From positions 62,001 to 126,000 of the forward strand of contig JAGVOT010000017.1 of assembly GCA_020052615.1 (NCBI GenBank): a DNA stretch of 64,000 bases. The letters are read 5' to 3'. A program made the position numbers and the translations under genes. This DNA is from Nitrospirota bacterium. Its GTDB lineage: Bacteria; Nitrospirota; UBA9217. Shown here piece by piece: positions 15,263 to 62,512 of the stretch (position 1 is its first letter; each line of letters starts with the position of its first letter). The notes beneath the pieces were generated by a model. It made no database searches, was not told the origin of the DNA, and was given only the letters and a program-made list of their open reading frames with translations.

Positions 15263-16453
15263 CTACGGCCAGTTGCTGGATCCGTGCTTCATTTTGTACA
15301 GGAAGTATTTTTCAAACCCGACCTTCATCCATCTCGCCCATACGGCTTTCTTGGTATAGGAACTCTGTCTCGGCGGGAGGACCGGATAGGCCTTCATCAG
15401 GGCGGCTGTATTCCCCATGTCCATAAGACAGACAACGCCGAGATCATCAGCGACAGGCGGTGTCTTCCCGGTAACGTCCGACGCAATGGTTGCAGCGGCG
15501 ATCTTCGCCATTTTCACGGTCATGAACCCGGTCTTGGGCACGCCCGTCGGCACCGGCGTCGCCTCGGGTGGCGCAATGGCCATCGCCACGCCGATCGCAA
15601 AGATATTCTTATGCTTGGGGTGACGGTAGTTCTTGTCCACCGGGATGAATCCCCGGGGATTCCCGAGCGGCGCAACGGCAGGCACCCCCTTGAACGGCGG
15701 AGCGATCATGGCGAGTTTGAATGGTATCTTATTGCCATCCTTCAGCCGTATCTCTCCGGGAGCAACTTCCTGAATGGCCTGGCTCACCAGCGGCTTGATG
15801 TCCCGCTCGGCGAACTCATGTTCCATGAACGTCTTCGAGGCGCCAAGTCCGCCGACGCCCATATGGCCGAGGTAGGGTTCTGAGGTAAGATACAGAATCG
15901 GAATCTTGTGGCGCATCTTCCGCCGGCGAAGCTCGCTATCTATTTCGAAAGCAAGCTCATAGGACGGGCCGAAGCAGCTCACCATCTGCGAAGAGCCAAG
16001 AACGATGGGACCGGGATTCTCAAGAACGCTCTTCCACGTCGCTCCCGTTTTTACCGCGTGGTCGAGCGTGAAGGTGCAGGCCGTATATCCCTTGTCCGGT
16101 CCGAGGCCGGGGATCTCATCAAAGGCAAGATGCGGTCCGGTTGATATGACGAGAAAGTCATAAGGGAGCTCTTTCCCTTTTGACGTGATGACCTTCGATG
16201 AGTCGGCATCTACCTGTTTCGCGGCCTCATGGACGAAATCAATTCCCTTCGGCTTAAGAATTTCAATTACCTTGAGCGTAATGTCCTCCGGTTTGCGCCA
16301 ACCCATGATGAGCCAGGGAAGCGACGGCAGAAACACGAACCGGTCGTCATCGCTCACCACGGTCACATCCGCTTGCTTGCCGAGCAGCCGCTTAATTTCA
16401 AAGGCCGCCGTCAATCCCCCGAACGATCCTCCTAAAACAACGATCTTTGCCAT
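15263..16453 (-). CDS. Sulfide:quinone oxidoreductase-like flavoprotein
   Basis: A 396-residue FAD protein with GGAGGATAAT before the ATG. The N-terminal FAD site reads VVLGGSFGGLTAA. Three Cys lie where sulfide:quinone reductases have their redox trio: Cys126 (TACTF), Cys160 (SCFGPSYE) and Cys342 (VCLMDMG). The C-terminal FAD/quinone segment FAIGVAMAI and a membrane-associating amphipathic tail (RWMKVGFEKYFLYKMKHG) complete the pattern. The enzyme oxidises sulfide to polysulfide and passes electrons to quinone at the membrane. It is the last gene of the sulfur cluster, and its product would feed persulfide to the DsrE/TusBC proteins. A sulfur-handling relative with another substrate cannot be excluded. 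Confidence 0.85.
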   Translation of the reverse strand: MAKIVVLGGSFGGLTAAFEIKRLLGKQADVTVVSDDDRFVFLPSLPWLIMGWRKPEDITLKVIEILKPKGIDFVHEAAKQVDADSSKVITSKGKELPYDFLVISTGPHLAFDEIPGLGPDKGYTACTFTLDHAVKTGATWKSVLENPGPIVLGSSQMVSCFGPSYELAFEIDSELRRRKMRHKIPILYLTSEPYLGHMGVGGLGASKTFMEHEFAERDIKPLVSQAIQEVAPGEIRLKDGNKIPFKLAMIAPPFKGVPAVAPLGNPRGFIPVDKNYRHPKHKNIFAIGVAMAIAPPEATPVPTGVPKTGFMTVKMAKIAAATIASDVTGKTPPVADDLGVVCLMDMGNTAALMKAYPVLPPRQSSYTKKAVWARWMKVGFEKYFLYKMKHGSSNWP

Positions 16454-16507: not shown

Positions 16508-16789
16508 CTAGAACATCCCTGTCACTTTTTTTCCGCTGGTTATCATGTCTGTCAATTTATCGTAGTCGATGGTTTTTACCCGGTCATCCATCTCGGAATC
16601 CTTGAGACCCCGAAGCCTCTTATCGTCGTCGAGTACATACACTGCGCCCGGCACGGTCCCCAGCCGCTCTTTCTGGGCAAAATAGACGCCGTTCTGCAGA
16701 AGAACAAGATCGGCCCCGCTTTCCTTCGCGAGGGTCAAGCCGAGCGCTCCATCTGTAGTATCGGGTGCGCTTTTTATCATCACCAGCAT
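16508..16789 (-). CDS. TusB/DsrH-like sulfur-relay protein
   Basis: A 93-residue soluble protein beginning MLVMIKSAPDTTDGALGL, with GAGGAGG before the ATG. The size, the VLLQNGVYFAQKE segment and VYVLDDDKRLRGL match the DsrH/TusB family. No Cys is present, so it lacks the Cys seen in some DsrH proteins and may act as a structural subunit of a DsrEFH/TusBCD-like hexamer. It lies 10 bases downstream of the TusC-like gene. A complex with the DsrE and TusC neighbours is inferred from the fixed gene set in other bacteria. Confidence 0.82.
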   Translation of the reverse strand: MLVMIKSAPDTTDGALGLTLAKESGADLVLLQNGVYFAQKERLGTVPGAVYVLDDDKRLRGLKDSEMDDRVKTIDYDKLTDMITSGKKVTGMF

Positions 16790-16799
16790 GGCGTCCTCC

Positions 16800-17153
16800 T
16801 CAGAATATCATTGTCGTTGTCGCTTCTTTCACCAGCCCCGCAATCTCCATGCTGCCGACTATCTTTACGTTTTCAACAAGATCATTCGACGCGACTCGCT
16901 GCGCCTTGAGCGAAGCAACGTCGGCGTAAACCGCTACGCCCATCTCCAGGCAGTCCTTGAGAGTGCCCTCAAGATTAGTGAACCCGGTCCCCGTGTCGTC
17001 CTGTCCTTTTTTTGCAAGCAGCACCCCTCCGTCCACGAGGATCAGATCAACGCTCATCTCGAACGACGCCGCGCCGAGCGCGTGACGGACCGCCTCGGCG
17101 GCATTGATATCACCGTAGGGAGATCTCTTCAAGATCATCGCAACAGCAGCCAT
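16800..17153 (-). CDS. TusC/DsrF-like sulfur-relay protein
   Basis: A 117-residue protein with CAGGAGG before the ATG. Family traits are the start AVAMILKRSPYGDINAAEAVRHALGA, the middle strand VDLILVDGGVLLAKKG, and LEGTLKDCLEMGVAVYAD. The single Cys in LKDCLEM matches the position conserved in several DsrF-like proteins. The C-terminal VGSMEIAGLVKEATTTMIF forms the last strand and helix of the DsrE fold. Located between the Sec-DsrE gene (49 bases upstream) and TusB. Predicted subunit of a heterohexameric sulfur carrier. Confidence 0.83.
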   Translation of the reverse strand: MAAVAMILKRSPYGDINAAEAVRHALGAASFEMSVDLILVDGGVLLAKKGQDDTGTGFTNLEGTLKDCLEMGVAVYADVASLKAQRVASNDLVENVKIVGSMEIAGLVKEATTTMIF

Positions 17154-17201: not shown

Positions 17202-17558
17202 TCACGCCCCGATATTGAGCCAGACATCGGTCTCGCCCATGGTTGCGAACAATCCTTTAAGGGAGCCGACTTCCGTATTTGCAAGATAATCGTCTTTCGC
17301 TGCACGGCGAAAGTTGAGGCAACCGCCTCAGAGATATACCTTCAGCCCTTTTTGTATCAGCCGGGCGAACTCCTCTTCAGCGTTCAGGATGCCTTTCGCC
17401 TTCTGTTTGGTCAGAAAGCAGTAGACGCCGTCTGCTGATGCGATCAGGTTGACGGTGTGGCCTTTGCTCAGGGCTGATTCAGCGATGCGGGAACTCGTCA
17501 GCGTGTTCTCGTACGAATACGGCGATGTGGACAGATACAGTGTAACGGTTTTCGGCAT
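17202..17558 (-). CDS. Selenocysteine-containing DsrE/TusD-like protein (in-frame UGA at codon 77)
   Basis: The frame opens at ATG 17558 (MPKTVTLYLSTSPYSYENTL, GGAGGAGG upstream) and meets TGA at 17330-17328. It continues in the same frame for 41 codons to a second TGA at 17204-17202, giving 118 residues. Upstream of the UGA are QKGLKVYL; downstream are GGCLNFRRAAKDDY and then EVGSLKGLFATMGETDVWL, all standard for the DsrE fold. Homologues have Cys-Gly-x-Cys exactly here, so the residue order is Sec-Gly-Gly-Cys. A SECIS-like hairpin follows. Without recoding the protein would lose its last strand, helix and active site. It sits between a cytochrome and tusC in the sulfur cluster. A plain nonsense mutation is the alternative. 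Confidence 0.85.
17294..17330 (-). promoter_or_regulatory. SECIS-like element of the DsrE-like gene
   Basis: After the UGA (17330-17328) come 14 bases and a perfect 7-base stem, CTTTCGC with GCGAAAG, enclosing loop CGTGCA that starts 21 bases after the UGA and contains GU. The UGA itself also begins a perfect 6-base hairpin (TGAGGC, GGTT, GCCTCA). Bacterial SelB recognises a hairpin at this distance inside the coding sequence. Confidence 0.72.
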
Positions 17559-17583: not shown

Positions 17584-18735
17584 TCATTGCTGCGGGCCAA
17601 GGGGAATTTGTTCATGATATATCGGATAGGCGATCGGCTCGACATTGTCGTAGCCTATCTTCTTCCGCCGTGCTTCATCAAGAAGATGGTATCGCACGGT
17701 CACATCTATGGCGGCAGGTGCGCCGGGACCGCGCTTGTTCAAGGGGACCTTGAACTCTCTCGGCTGCAAGTACGGCAACCGCGTGTCCCGGAGATCAATG
17801 ATGAACGGTCTCCAGAGGATGTACCTTTTCATCGCATACACCTTTTCCTTCAACACCTCCCCGTCCGGCCCCAGGAGTTTCAACTCGAGGGTCAGATGCC
17901 GGTCCGGGGTGCCGGTCGGCAGATAGTGGGCCGCCCCCACATTCGTCAGCGTGATGACTAGCCCGTTATCCTCCAATCGATGGTCGACCCGCAGCGATTC
18001 CTTCACGCGCCCCGGCTCATGGCCGCCATGGAACAGATGCCGTCCCCCTTGCCGCACCGGCGTCCCGTCGGCTGCCGGCCGCATGACTGGCGGCATATGG
18101 CAGGATACGCAGTCTATCGTCTGTTTACCTTTTTCTATCTCCGCGACGGTGCCGCAGGGCGGGATCGTGTAGAACGTGTCCCATCGTTTTCCCGCTACTA
18201 CATGGCAACGCAGACAGGGTTTGATCCCTTTCGCCATTCCGGGATCATACTCCACCGGATGGGGGGCCCTGTTTGTCAGGAAGGGACCGACGATCCTGCC
18301 GTTCCGAATATGGCAGACCGCGCAGGTCACGCCTTCATCCCGGAGCGCGGCATCGAACGCCGGATTCGGCGCAAGGATGGGGTCGAATTTATCGCGGTCC
18401 CTGAATCCCAGCACGAGGTCCTGCTGCTGGTTCACCAGCGGCGTATGGCAATTGAGGCAGATCTGCAGGGAGCCGTCGTATTTGAAATCGACCTGGAAGT
18501 ACGGGTCGGTCCACGCCCGTGCGTGCATGCTGCCGGCCCACTCGCTGTAGATCTCCCGATGGCACGTCCCGCAGTCCTTTGCGCTGAGCGACGCGAGGCC
18601 GCGAGGCGTCTCGACCTGCATCGGTCTTTCAAACCGCTCGTCGATAACAAAGATGTTCAGGGGCCGCAAGAGCCGCCAGAGCAGGAACAGGACGATCAGC
18701 GCCGAAATGATCAACCATGCCGTTTTTTTTGCCAT
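17584..18735 (-). CDS. Membrane-anchored five-haem cytochrome c
   Basis: A 383-residue protein with an N-terminal anchor helix (WLIISALIVLFLLWRLL, residues 7-23) placing the rest in the periplasm. Five CxxCH haem sites are at about Cys55, 93, 138, 174 and 209 (CGTCH, CLNCH, CAVCH, CLRCH, CVSCH). Residues ~240-383 form a haem-free beta domain with VTNVGAAHYLPTGTPDR and LDEARRKKIGYD, as in cytochrome c554-type and other multihaem electron-transfer proteins. It lies between TauE and the DsrE-like gene, so it may exchange electrons with sulfur oxyanions or with the SQR-like flavoprotein. The exact enzyme, if any, is not identifiable. Confidence 0.88.
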   Translation of the reverse strand: MAKKTAWLIISALIVLFLLWRLLRPLNIFVIDERFERPMQVETPRGLASLSAKDCGTCHREIYSEWAGSMHARAWTDPYFQVDFKYDGSLQICLNCHTPLVNQQQDLVLGFRDRDKFDPILAPNPAFDAALRDEGVTCAVCHIRNGRIVGPFLTNRAPHPVEYDPGMAKGIKPCLRCHVVAGKRWDTFYTIPPCGTVAEIEKGKQTIDCVSCHMPPVMRPAADGTPVRQGGRHLFHGGHEPGRVKESLRVDHRLEDNGLVITLTNVGAAHYLPTGTPDRHLTLELKLLGPDGEVLKEKVYAMKRYILWRPFIIDLRDTRLPYLQPREFKVPLNKRGPGAPAAIDVTVRYHLLDEARRKKIGYDNVEPIAYPIYHEQIPLGPQQ

Positions 18736-18791: not shown

Positions 18792-19580
18792 TTATCGGCC
18801 GGTCAGTATCTGATACCACATCCTGATGCCCGTGATCGCAATGATGACCGCTATGCCGATCCGAAGGTATTTCGTGTTCACCTTCTTGCTCATCATTCCG
18901 CCGAACTGCGCGCCGGGGACCGTGCCAGCGACGAGCGCGATCGCGGCCGGCCAAATGATCTGGCCGGTGGCCGTCTTTCCGATCGTGCCGGTGACCGCTC
19001 CAAGGAAGACGATCCCGAGGGTGCTGCCGATGACGATGCGCGTCGGGATGTTCAGGAGGTAGATCATCACGGGGATATAGATGAACGCGCCCGGCGCTCC
19101 CACCATGCCCCCAAACATTCCGATGACGATACTGACGGCCGCGGCGAGAGGCTTGTTGTACATGAGATCATCGGGCGCGATGTCCCGGCCCCGTTCGCGC
19201 TTCGGGATAAACATCGCCACCGCGGCGATAACCGCAAGCGTGGCAAAAATGGCGAGCAGCAGGGAACTTTTTGTGTACTGCGAGTAAAAGGAGCCTGCGA
19301 GATTACCGAGGGCGTTGCACAGACCCATGGTGAGAAGAAGGGATCTGCTCACGAACCTGTTCTTGTGATGGACGATGACGCCCGTGAGAGACGCAGACAG
19401 TACCTGGACCATGCTGACCGCGGCCACCTGCTTCATGTCGAACTGCCCCACGCCGAGCAGCGGCGGGACGTAGAGAAGCAGCGGTATCATGAAGATGGCG
19501 CCGCCAAGGCCCAGAAGACCCGAAAGGAATCCGCCGCCGAGGCCCAGCACAACGAGCGTTCCCAGGAGTGCTAGATCCAT
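18792..19580 (-). CDS. TauE/SafE family sulfur-compound permease
   Basis: A 262-residue membrane protein with about eight helices. It starts at 19580 directly after the stop of the Sec-thioredoxin gene (TGACATG), with GAAGGGGG as ribosome site. Signatures include GFLSGLLGLGGAIFMIPLLL near the N-terminus and the repeated half-motif GMFGGMVGAPGAFIYIPVMI after the centre, as in the DUF81/TauE/SafE family. The family carries sulfite, sulfoacetate or other sulfur anions; here the neighbours (thioredoxin fold, DsrE, SQR) support a sulfur substrate. Direction of transport is unknown. Confidence 0.9.
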   Translation of the reverse strand: MDLALLGTLVVLGLGGGFLSGLLGLGGAIFMIPLLLYVPPLLGVGQFDMKQVAAVSMVQVLSASLTGVIVHHKNRFVSRSLLLTMGLCNALGNLAGSFYSQYTKSSLLLAIFATLAVIAAVAMFIPKRERGRDIAPDDLMYNKPLAAAVSIVIGMFGGMVGAPGAFIYIPVMIYLLNIPTRIVIGSTLGIVFLGAVTGTIGKTATGQIIWPAAIALVAGTVPGAQFGGMMSKKVNTKYLRIGIAVIIAITGIRMWYQILTGR

Positions 19581-19581
19581 G

Positions 19582-19851
19582 TCATGCCCCCTTCAGAGTG
19601 CCTTCGTTCAGTATTGCAGCCTTAAGCGCTTCATAAGTGACGATATCGTTTTTTACAATGAGCTTGCTGTTCACCAGGACGGAGGGACAAGGCAGCGGGT
19701 CATGTTCTTCGGCGTACCGAGGCGAGGTCTTCTTGATCACGACGATCTGCGCGCCGAACTCTTTCTCCGCCCGACCGGCGGCTTCCCTGTTCAGTGCTCA
19801 GCGTTTCCCCAGGGGATCGTTGACATACAACGTTATGACGTGTTTGTTCAT
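19582..19851 (-). CDS. Selenocysteine-containing thioredoxin-fold mini-protein (in-frame UGA at codon 18)
   Basis: The ATG at 19851 immediately follows the ArsR stop (TAAATG) with GAGGAG eight bases upstream. The frame reads MNKHVITLYVNDPLGKR, then TGA (19800-19798), and continues for 71 codons to a TGA at 19584. After the UGA come ALNREAAGRAEKEFGAQ, a beta strand IVVIKK and LPCPSVLVNSKLIV, where Cys55-Pro56 is the cis-Pro loop of thioredoxin folds. Related mini-thioredoxins have CxxC where this has Gly-Lys-Arg-Sec, so only the second redox residue remains, as Sec18. A hairpin with loop GGTCG follows. The gene is missed by ordinary ORF calling. Perfect spacing to both neighbours argues against a pseudogene. 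Confidence 0.83.
19767..19800 (-). promoter_or_regulatory. SECIS-like element of the thioredoxin-fold gene
   Basis: Sixteen bases after the UGA (19800-19798) a perfect 5-base stem CCGCC/GGCGG encloses loop GGTCG. The loop starts 21 bases after the UGA and resembles the GGUCU loop of the E. coli fdhF SECIS. Confidence 0.72.
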
Positions 19852-20193
19852 TTACCGTCTCCTCTCGCCGGGATAGGTGCCCCGCTTTGTCACCGGACAG
19901 CATGCCGGCGCGGGAATGTCCTCTTCATATTCTTTTTTCAACAGCTCCAGCAGGTCAGGAATGAGCGGCTCCTTGAGAAAATAGCACTTGAGGCGGCCAT
20001 CGACGAAAAAATCGATGATGCTGTGCGAGCGCAGCAGTTTGAGATGCTGCGACACGTTCGGCTGGCTGATGTCGAGGGACTCCTCGAAATCGCTCACGCA
20101 CTTGACCCCCTGCACGAGTTCTTCCAGGATCCTGATCCGGGCGGGATGAGCGATCACTTTTAAGAGCTCTAACCTTGCGTTCGTCGCGATCAT
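19852..20193 (-). CDS. ArsR-family transcriptional regulator
   Basis: A 113-residue winged-helix repressor. The start at 20193 (MIATNARLELLKVIAHPARI) is chosen for the AGGAGG upstream; a longer frame from 20223 lacks one. The recognition helix region is SLDISQPNVSQHLKLLRSHS. Cys residues are at 32 (GVKCVSD), 70 (LKCYFL) and 98-99 (PACCPV). Metal-sensing ArsR proteins use Cys at about 32-34, whereas sulfide/persulfide sensors such as SqrR use a distant Cys pair, so a thiol-based sensor is plausible. It is the first gene of the sulfur/selenium cluster and overlaps its promoter region, implying autoregulation. Confidence 0.88.
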   Translation of the reverse strand: MIATNARLELLKVIAHPARIRILEELVQGVKCVSDFEESLDISQPNVSQHLKLLRSHSIIDFFVDGRLKCYFLKEPLIPDLLELLKKEYEEDIPAPACCPVTKRGTYPGERRR

Positions 20194-62319: not shown

Positions 62320-62512
62320 CGACCGGCGTATACAACGGGCTTGCGGATGCTAGCGCCGTTCTAGGTAGCCTCGAAGCTCTGCGTCCCCGGATTTCTCCAG
62401 GTTTGCTCTGAGCAAAGTTCTTTGAATATGGCCTTCAACGGCTGAAGGTGGAGATACTGTAACATGAGTCCGCCCCGCTTGTCAATATCAGGGAGGAACC
62501 TGCCGACAGGCG

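Follow-up and report, generated by a model that had tools for sequence, protein, structure and literature searches.

Genes and features of the locus

The window, by which we mean the whole 64,000-nucleotide stretch of Nitrospirota contig JAGVOT010000017.1 that was analyzed, contains a dsrE-like gene that is interrupted by an in-frame UGA and is accompanied on the same strand by genes for an ArsR-family regulator, two further small proteins of the DsrE and DsrH type, and a sulfide:quinone oxidoreductase (SQR) (Table 1). Read from the ATG at 17558, the dsrE(Sec) frame proceeds as MPKTVTLYLSTSPYSYEN...KGLKVYL to the TGA at codon 77, resumes as GGCLNFRRAAKDDYLANTEVGSLKGLFATMGETDVWLNIGA, and ends at a second TGA (17204–17202). 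As the initial annotation had pointed out, simple ORF calling truncates this gene before its active site: the plain ORF list cuts it at codon 76.

Table 1. Features of the dsrE(Sec) operon in the window, with the evidence for each
Feature	Position	Strand	Evidence or remarks
dsrE-like selenoprotein gene	17202..17558	-	118 aa with Sec77; terminal TGA included
In-frame UGA, codon 77, predicted Sec of the U-G-G-C motif	17328..17330	-	homologue comparison
Predicted bacterial SECIS hairpin, 7-bp stem, loop CGUGCA	17294..17313	-	fold, covariation, synonymous constraint
dsrF/tusC-like subunit	16800..17153	-	Pfam DsrE; TIGR03010 41.2 bits, cut-off 94
dsrH/tusB-like subunit, no Cys	16508..16789	-	Pfam DsrH E 3.7e-10; TIGR03011 41.9 bits, cut-off 49.2
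Sulfide:quinone oxidoreductase (SQR), Cys126, Cys160, Cys342	15263..16453	-	PDB 3hyv, E 2.4e-98
Multihaem c-type cytochrome, inserted in operon	17584..18735	-	Pfam cytochrome matches
TauE/SafE family permease, inserted in operon	18792..19580	-	Pfam E 1.7e-43
TsoC-like selenoprotein gene, 89 aa, NDPLGKR-Sec motif	19582..19851	-	NF045708 35.7 bits, cut-off 45
In-frame UGA, codon 18 of TsoC-like gene	19798..19800	-	homologue comparison
SECIS-like hairpin of TsoC-like gene, CCGCC-GGUCG-GGCGG	19767..19781	-	fold z -2.67
ArsR-family regulator, Cys32, 70, 98, 99 (BigR/TsoR-like)	19852..20193	-	HTH_5 E 4.2e-11

The Pfam DsrE domain spans the UGA (residues 5–111, E 4.4e-15, 56.3 bits against a gathering score of 22.7 bits), confirming the earlier claim of an in-frame UGA inside a DsrE-family frame, and the AlphaFold model of the complete protein (pLDDT 83.6) is nearest in fold to YchN and DsrEFH. 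Alignment with PDB sequences places Sec77 in the column of the cysteine in the CKTC motif of Escherichia coli YchN. Pentatricopeptide matches that also appeared in the PDB search were discarded as low-complexity artefacts. The UGA was originally described as replacing the active-site cysteine to give Sec-Gly-Gly-Cys, and this is borne out by four relatives that have a cysteine (CGTC) at this column; the accompanying description of CGxC as the family motif is not, since no such motif is canonical for DsrE, the nearest Cys homologues having CGTC, the DsrE of the dsr cluster in the same genome CEAC, and YchN CKTC.

Conservation of the in-frame UGA

Scanning genome contigs identified fifteen named records with dsrE(Sec) homologues, all from Nitrospirota. 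Across 395 surveyed Nitrospirota genomes, 92 encode a DsrE with an in-frame TGA and four the Cys form, the latter all belonging to one family (f3) and carrying the motif CGTC. At the level of distinct homologues, 45 of 49 have TGA at the motif column and four have TGC or TGT. The Sec motif occurs as UGGC, UTGC, or UGAC, and Cys80 of the UxxC motif is invariant. In a tree of Sec and Cys forms, the four Cys rows are interspersed with the Sec rows, but the branches that bear them are open and the branch to the outgroup is too long to orient the Sec-to-Cys change. A scan of viral contigs found no relatives, and a tblastn search of plasmids returned only distant DsrE proteins.

For one genome taken by itself, the simplest reading of an in-frame stop would be a sequencing error, a pseudogene, or an ordinary stop codon, with the two halves being pieces of a gene that has died or simply ends at the stop. 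However, the internal codon is TGA in 45 of 45 Sec homologues, whereas their terminal stops vary (28 TAG, 10 TGA, 7 TAA), which argues that the internal TGA is held by selection. The frame is preserved downstream of the UGA in at least 45 distinct relatives, and pN/pS is equally low on both sides of it (0.16 before, 0.17 after), so that constraint persists past the TGA. The window's genome moreover carries the entire operon twice, and the dsrE of the other copy (contig C36) also has the TGA; as the codon is common to this copy and to independently assembled genomes, a misread cysteine codon, which had been raised earlier as a possible objection, does not account for it. Together with the conserved and covarying hairpin described below, the conservation of the TGA against varying terminal stops leads us to rule out error, pseudogene, and ordinary stop.

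A frame that is open if TGA encodes a residue would likewise be expected if UGA were reassigned genome-wide or read through by a near-cognate tRNA, but dsrE(Sec) itself terminates in TGA, its homologues terminate with TGA, TAA, or TAG, the internal UGA aligns with cysteine, and the genomes encode Sec machinery; on the terminal-stop variation and the conservation among homologues, we reject this explanation too as highly improbable.

A SECIS element downstream of the UGA

The hairpin CUUUCGC-[CGUGCA]-GCGAAAG begins 14 nt past the UGA and has a fold z-score of about -2.5 relative to shuffled sequence, while the terminal TGA of the same gene is followed by no comparable structure (z +0.6). Across 21 sequences, 95% of the pair cells are standard pairs, as opposed to 42–61% when the partner strand is slid, and both sides have changed in three of the seven pairs. 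Codons 82–87, which encode the hairpin, are the six-codon window of lowest synonymous diversity in dsrE(Sec). In the UTGC lineage a hairpin is retained with other letters in it; none is present in the four Cys homologues. The perfect 7-base hairpin at SECIS distance noted in the initial annotation is therefore real, covaries in relatives, and is missing from the Cys homologues. The properties expected of a bacterial SECIS element (a hairpin downstream of the UGA, a G in its apical loop, and maintenance by selection) are all found in dsrE(Sec), and by these sequence properties we assign the hairpin as its SECIS.

Selenocysteine machinery

The search for selA, selB, selC, and selD that had been proposed as a check was performed on the window's genome (G000; 4.0 Mb, 98% complete) and detected selA and selB adjacent to each other on contig C96, a selD that has an in-frame TGA of its own, and two different tRNA-Sec genes with UCA anticodons (C50:31653–31747 and C130:47997–48087). 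Neither tRNA-Sec gene adjoins selAB. Among the 395 genomes, selA is present in 85 of the 92 with a TGA-containing DsrE and in 90 of the 303 others (odds ratio 29, p 3e-28, a value that overstates independence because the genomes are partly related). The seven TGA-DsrE genomes in which selA was not detected have selB or tRNA-Sec above the family cut-off, so that at least one Sec-machinery gene is present in all 92. As judged from the comparative sequence data, the window gene encodes a genuine selenoprotein into which selenocysteine is inserted at UGA-77. None of the three observations that the initial annotation had named as refuting its claim was made.

Neighbouring genes

The order arsR–dsrE(Sec)–dsrF–dsrH–SQR, on one strand, is kept in most of 33 loci from many families, and dsrF directly follows dsrE(Sec) in every operon sampled. 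The permease and cytochrome genes between arsR and dsrE were found in the window and in a congener (L019). None of the three small subunits reaches its TusBCD equivalog cut-off (TIGR03010/03011/03012), Sec-DsrE scoring 15.5 bits on the TusD model, for which the cut-off is 89. The SQR product is homologous to solved SQRs, matching those of Aquifex and Acidithiobacillus with E 1e-94 or better, and its three cysteines are kept in nearly all intact homologues.

The ArsR-family protein scores 49.6 bits with BigR (NF040642) and 38.7 bits with TsoR (NF045707), both under the respective cut-off. All four of its cysteines are present in 28 of 28 homologues, and two of them, Cys32 and Cys98, are 66 residues apart, as are Cys50 and Cys116 of the sulfane-sulfur sensor sHdrR (PMC12423496). 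The regulator thus has the cysteine spacing of sulfane-sulfur-sensing ArsR proteins of the SqrR/BigR type, but not an equivalog score.

Downstream of SQR, 12–18 of 28 loci contain genes for an MMPL-family exporter, a DsrE2-like protein, and a LolA-like protein (e.g., L067 3624–1324; L100 9244–9669 and 12027–12824); no such genes were found around the copy in the window. Elsewhere in the window, a c-di-GMP-I riboswitch was detected at 62417–62310 on the minus strand (51 bits).

The window's genome also contains, on contig C33, a separate cluster of dsrAB, a DsrD-like gene (its 18.6 bits fall short of the cut-off), dsrC, dsrMK(J-like), and another DsrEFH, which is of the Cys type and whose DsrE carries the CEAC motif; members of this cluster without a family match were identified by eye from their translations. 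As a Cys-type DsrEFH is already present there, the Sec operon is distinct from the dsr set, and Sec-DsrEFH need not feed DsrAB. The cluster (locus L069, C33:36000–46000) is a mixed reductive/oxidative dsr gene set.

Relationship to known systems

DsrE-like selenoproteins with a UxxC motif have been reported from the Sargasso Sea (2005; PMC1088965) and from Desulfovibrio vulgaris (2006; PMC1794560), and were still listed as uncharacterized in a 2026 review (PMC13188914). The window protein shares with this family (PF02635) the Pfam DsrE domain, the UxxC motif (here UGGC), and a bacterial SECIS element; the likeness to the D. vulgaris reference (WP_014524487.1) is drawn from the family description. 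In the surveys, however, the family consists of a handful of sequences with no function, none of which has been placed in a DsrEFH–SQR operon. The selenoprotein finding is real, and DsrE-like UxxC selenoproteins as such are already known. No published description of a Sec-DsrEFH or of an arsR–dsrE(Sec)–dsrF–dsrH–SQR operon was found in the literature searched, which excludes most subscription papers; the terms ‘selenocysteine’ and ‘DsrEFH’ occurred together only in a Sulfobacillus paper, with a single mention of each.

Like DsrEFH type I of Allochromatium vinosum and TusBCD of E. coli, the window set comprises three small proteins with DsrE and DsrH folds that are encoded side by side, matches 2hy5 and 2d1p in fold, and has the active residue of DsrE at the same position. 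Unlike these systems, it adjoins SQR rather than dsrAB, and it differs from the A. vinosum complex in having Sec in place of Cys78, an additional cysteine at +3, and a DsrH without Cys20. DsrEFH type II, described from cable bacteria (ISME J 2026), is a divergent form in dsrAB-containing organisms that is common in Nitrospirota, in which its subtype 1 is mainly found; its relay residue, Cys67, is conserved as cysteine in 99.3% of sequences, it sits with tusA and yeeE, and selenium appears nowhere in the text of that paper (PMC13293266). Type II and the window set are both divergent forms of DsrEFH in organisms that have dsrAB, and they have in common a single relay residue in DsrE, which is Cys67 in the former and would be Sec in the latter. 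In clustering of the window-type loci, the only analysis that bears on this point, neither tusA nor yeeE/yedE was among the recurrent neighbours. The best match to Sec-DsrE, in both fold and sequence, is E. coli YchN (1jx7), which differs in lacking Sec, in lying outside any SQR operon, and in having no assigned function.

A proposed role in sulfur relay

We consider it likely that the selenoprotein DsrE serves as the catalytic subunit of a DsrEFH-like relay complex that is supplied with sulfane sulfur by SQR and is under ArsR control. According to this model, SelB, guided by the hairpin, would insert Sec at UGA-77, and the resulting subunit would assemble into a sulfurtransferase with partners encoded by the next two genes. 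Sec77 would occupy the position of the sulfur-carrying cysteine of DsrE and YchN, with Cys80 as the likely resolving thiol. SQR would oxidize sulfide at the quinone pool, yielding persulfide or polysulfide, and Sec-DsrEFH would take up this sulfane sulfur as a Sec-bound persulfide, to be handed on, with DsrC of the dsr cluster as a candidate acceptor, or else released as sulfide by closure of a Sec77–Cys80 bond. The operon would be controlled by ArsR as a regulator of the sulfane-sulfur-sensing type. In A. vinosum, sulfur is carried by Cys78 of DsrE and transferred to DsrC (PMC3397948), and Sec77 should by analogy be the carrier of SQR-derived sulfane sulfur. The DsrF, DsrH, SQR, and ArsR neighbourhood strengthens the suggestion in the initial annotation that Sec alters the chemistry of sulfur relay, which is a plausible one. 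Counting against the model are the DsrH of the window, which has no counterpart of the Cys20 required by A. vinosum in vivo, the TusBCD scores of all three subunits, which stay under the cut-offs, and the other DsrEFH within the dsr cluster.

The UxxC motif would suit not only a carrier but also a thiol/selenol reductase, and Sec77 and Cys80 might instead form a redox pair whose task is the reduction of persulfides or polysulfides to H2S, for detoxification or sulfur reduction. Selenol/thiol oxidoreductases typically have U-x-x-C, Cys80 never varies, and the ArsR, TauE, and TsoC-like neighbours suggest reactive-sulfur or chalcogen stress. However, a reductase does not follow from the motif by itself, as CxxC is also found in the Cys homologues and in the DsrE of the dsr cluster (CEAC); furthermore, the fold of DsrE is one of sulfur transfer, and DsrF, DsrH, and SQR are constant company. 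Because dsrE(Sec) always occurs with dsrF and dsrH, we prefer relay to reduction and regard the redox pair as the less likely reading, to which the UxxC motif nevertheless lends some weight.

It is considerably less probable that the operon handles selenium, with Sec-DsrE carrying or reducing selenium species in the manner of YedF, and TauE and ArsR dealing with selenite or metalloids. The motif region is weakly similar to the selenium-metabolism protein YedF, and the ArsR resembles metalloregulators, TsoR included, but the YedF score is far under the cut-off, and the partner that varies least is a genuine SQR, complete with sulfide-active cysteines. The earlier idea that Sec favours selenium reduction thus found no support in this analysis.

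A second selenoprotein and implications for genomic surveys

Directly after arsR lies a gene, absent from the initial annotation of dsrE(Sec), that encodes a predicted second selenoprotein. Its TGA is kept in relatives that lie beside Sec-DsrE and is replaced by cysteine (NDPMGRRC) in distant homologues, and a similar hairpin follows the UGA in most of the Sec homologues. Since its score is below the NCBIfam cut-off, we regard it as a divergent relative of TsoC. The Tso operon is described as a three-selenoprotein operon (Haft and Tolstoy 2025, as cited in PMC13188914); the resemblance consists of a TsoC-like selenoprotein beside a TsoR/BigR-like ArsR, whereas here both genes fall below the family cut-offs and are accompanied by Sec-DsrE, DsrF, DsrH, and SQR.

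For 20 years, DsrE-like UxxC selenoproteins have been catalogued with no function attached to them. The near-constant DsrF/DsrH/SQR operon offers a concrete, testable role and suggests that, in a sulfur-relay complex, selenium takes the position that carries the sulfur. More tentatively, and with somewhat less than even confidence, we propose that a Sec-for-Cys carrier may be phylum-wide in a DsrEFH-type relay that holds SQR-derived sulfur as a selenium-bound persulfide, and that the TsoC-like selenoprotein may act in the same pathway, both being invisible to Cys-based surveys. The presence of DsrEFH in a genome is now taken to mark sulfide oxidation or disproportionation, and as gene callers end the Sec form immediately ahead of its active residue, surveys of DsrEFH would undercount Nitrospirota.

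Two relatives differ in their TsoC-like genes. In genome G008 (L070, 7738–7562; the same in L037), the first 55 or so residues of the TsoC-like frame are followed by sequence scrambled as if by a frameshift, and the adjacent Sec-DsrE is intact. Locus L103 has two different adjoining TsoC-like selenoprotein frames (7677–7441 and 8108–7857) upstream of Sec-DsrE.
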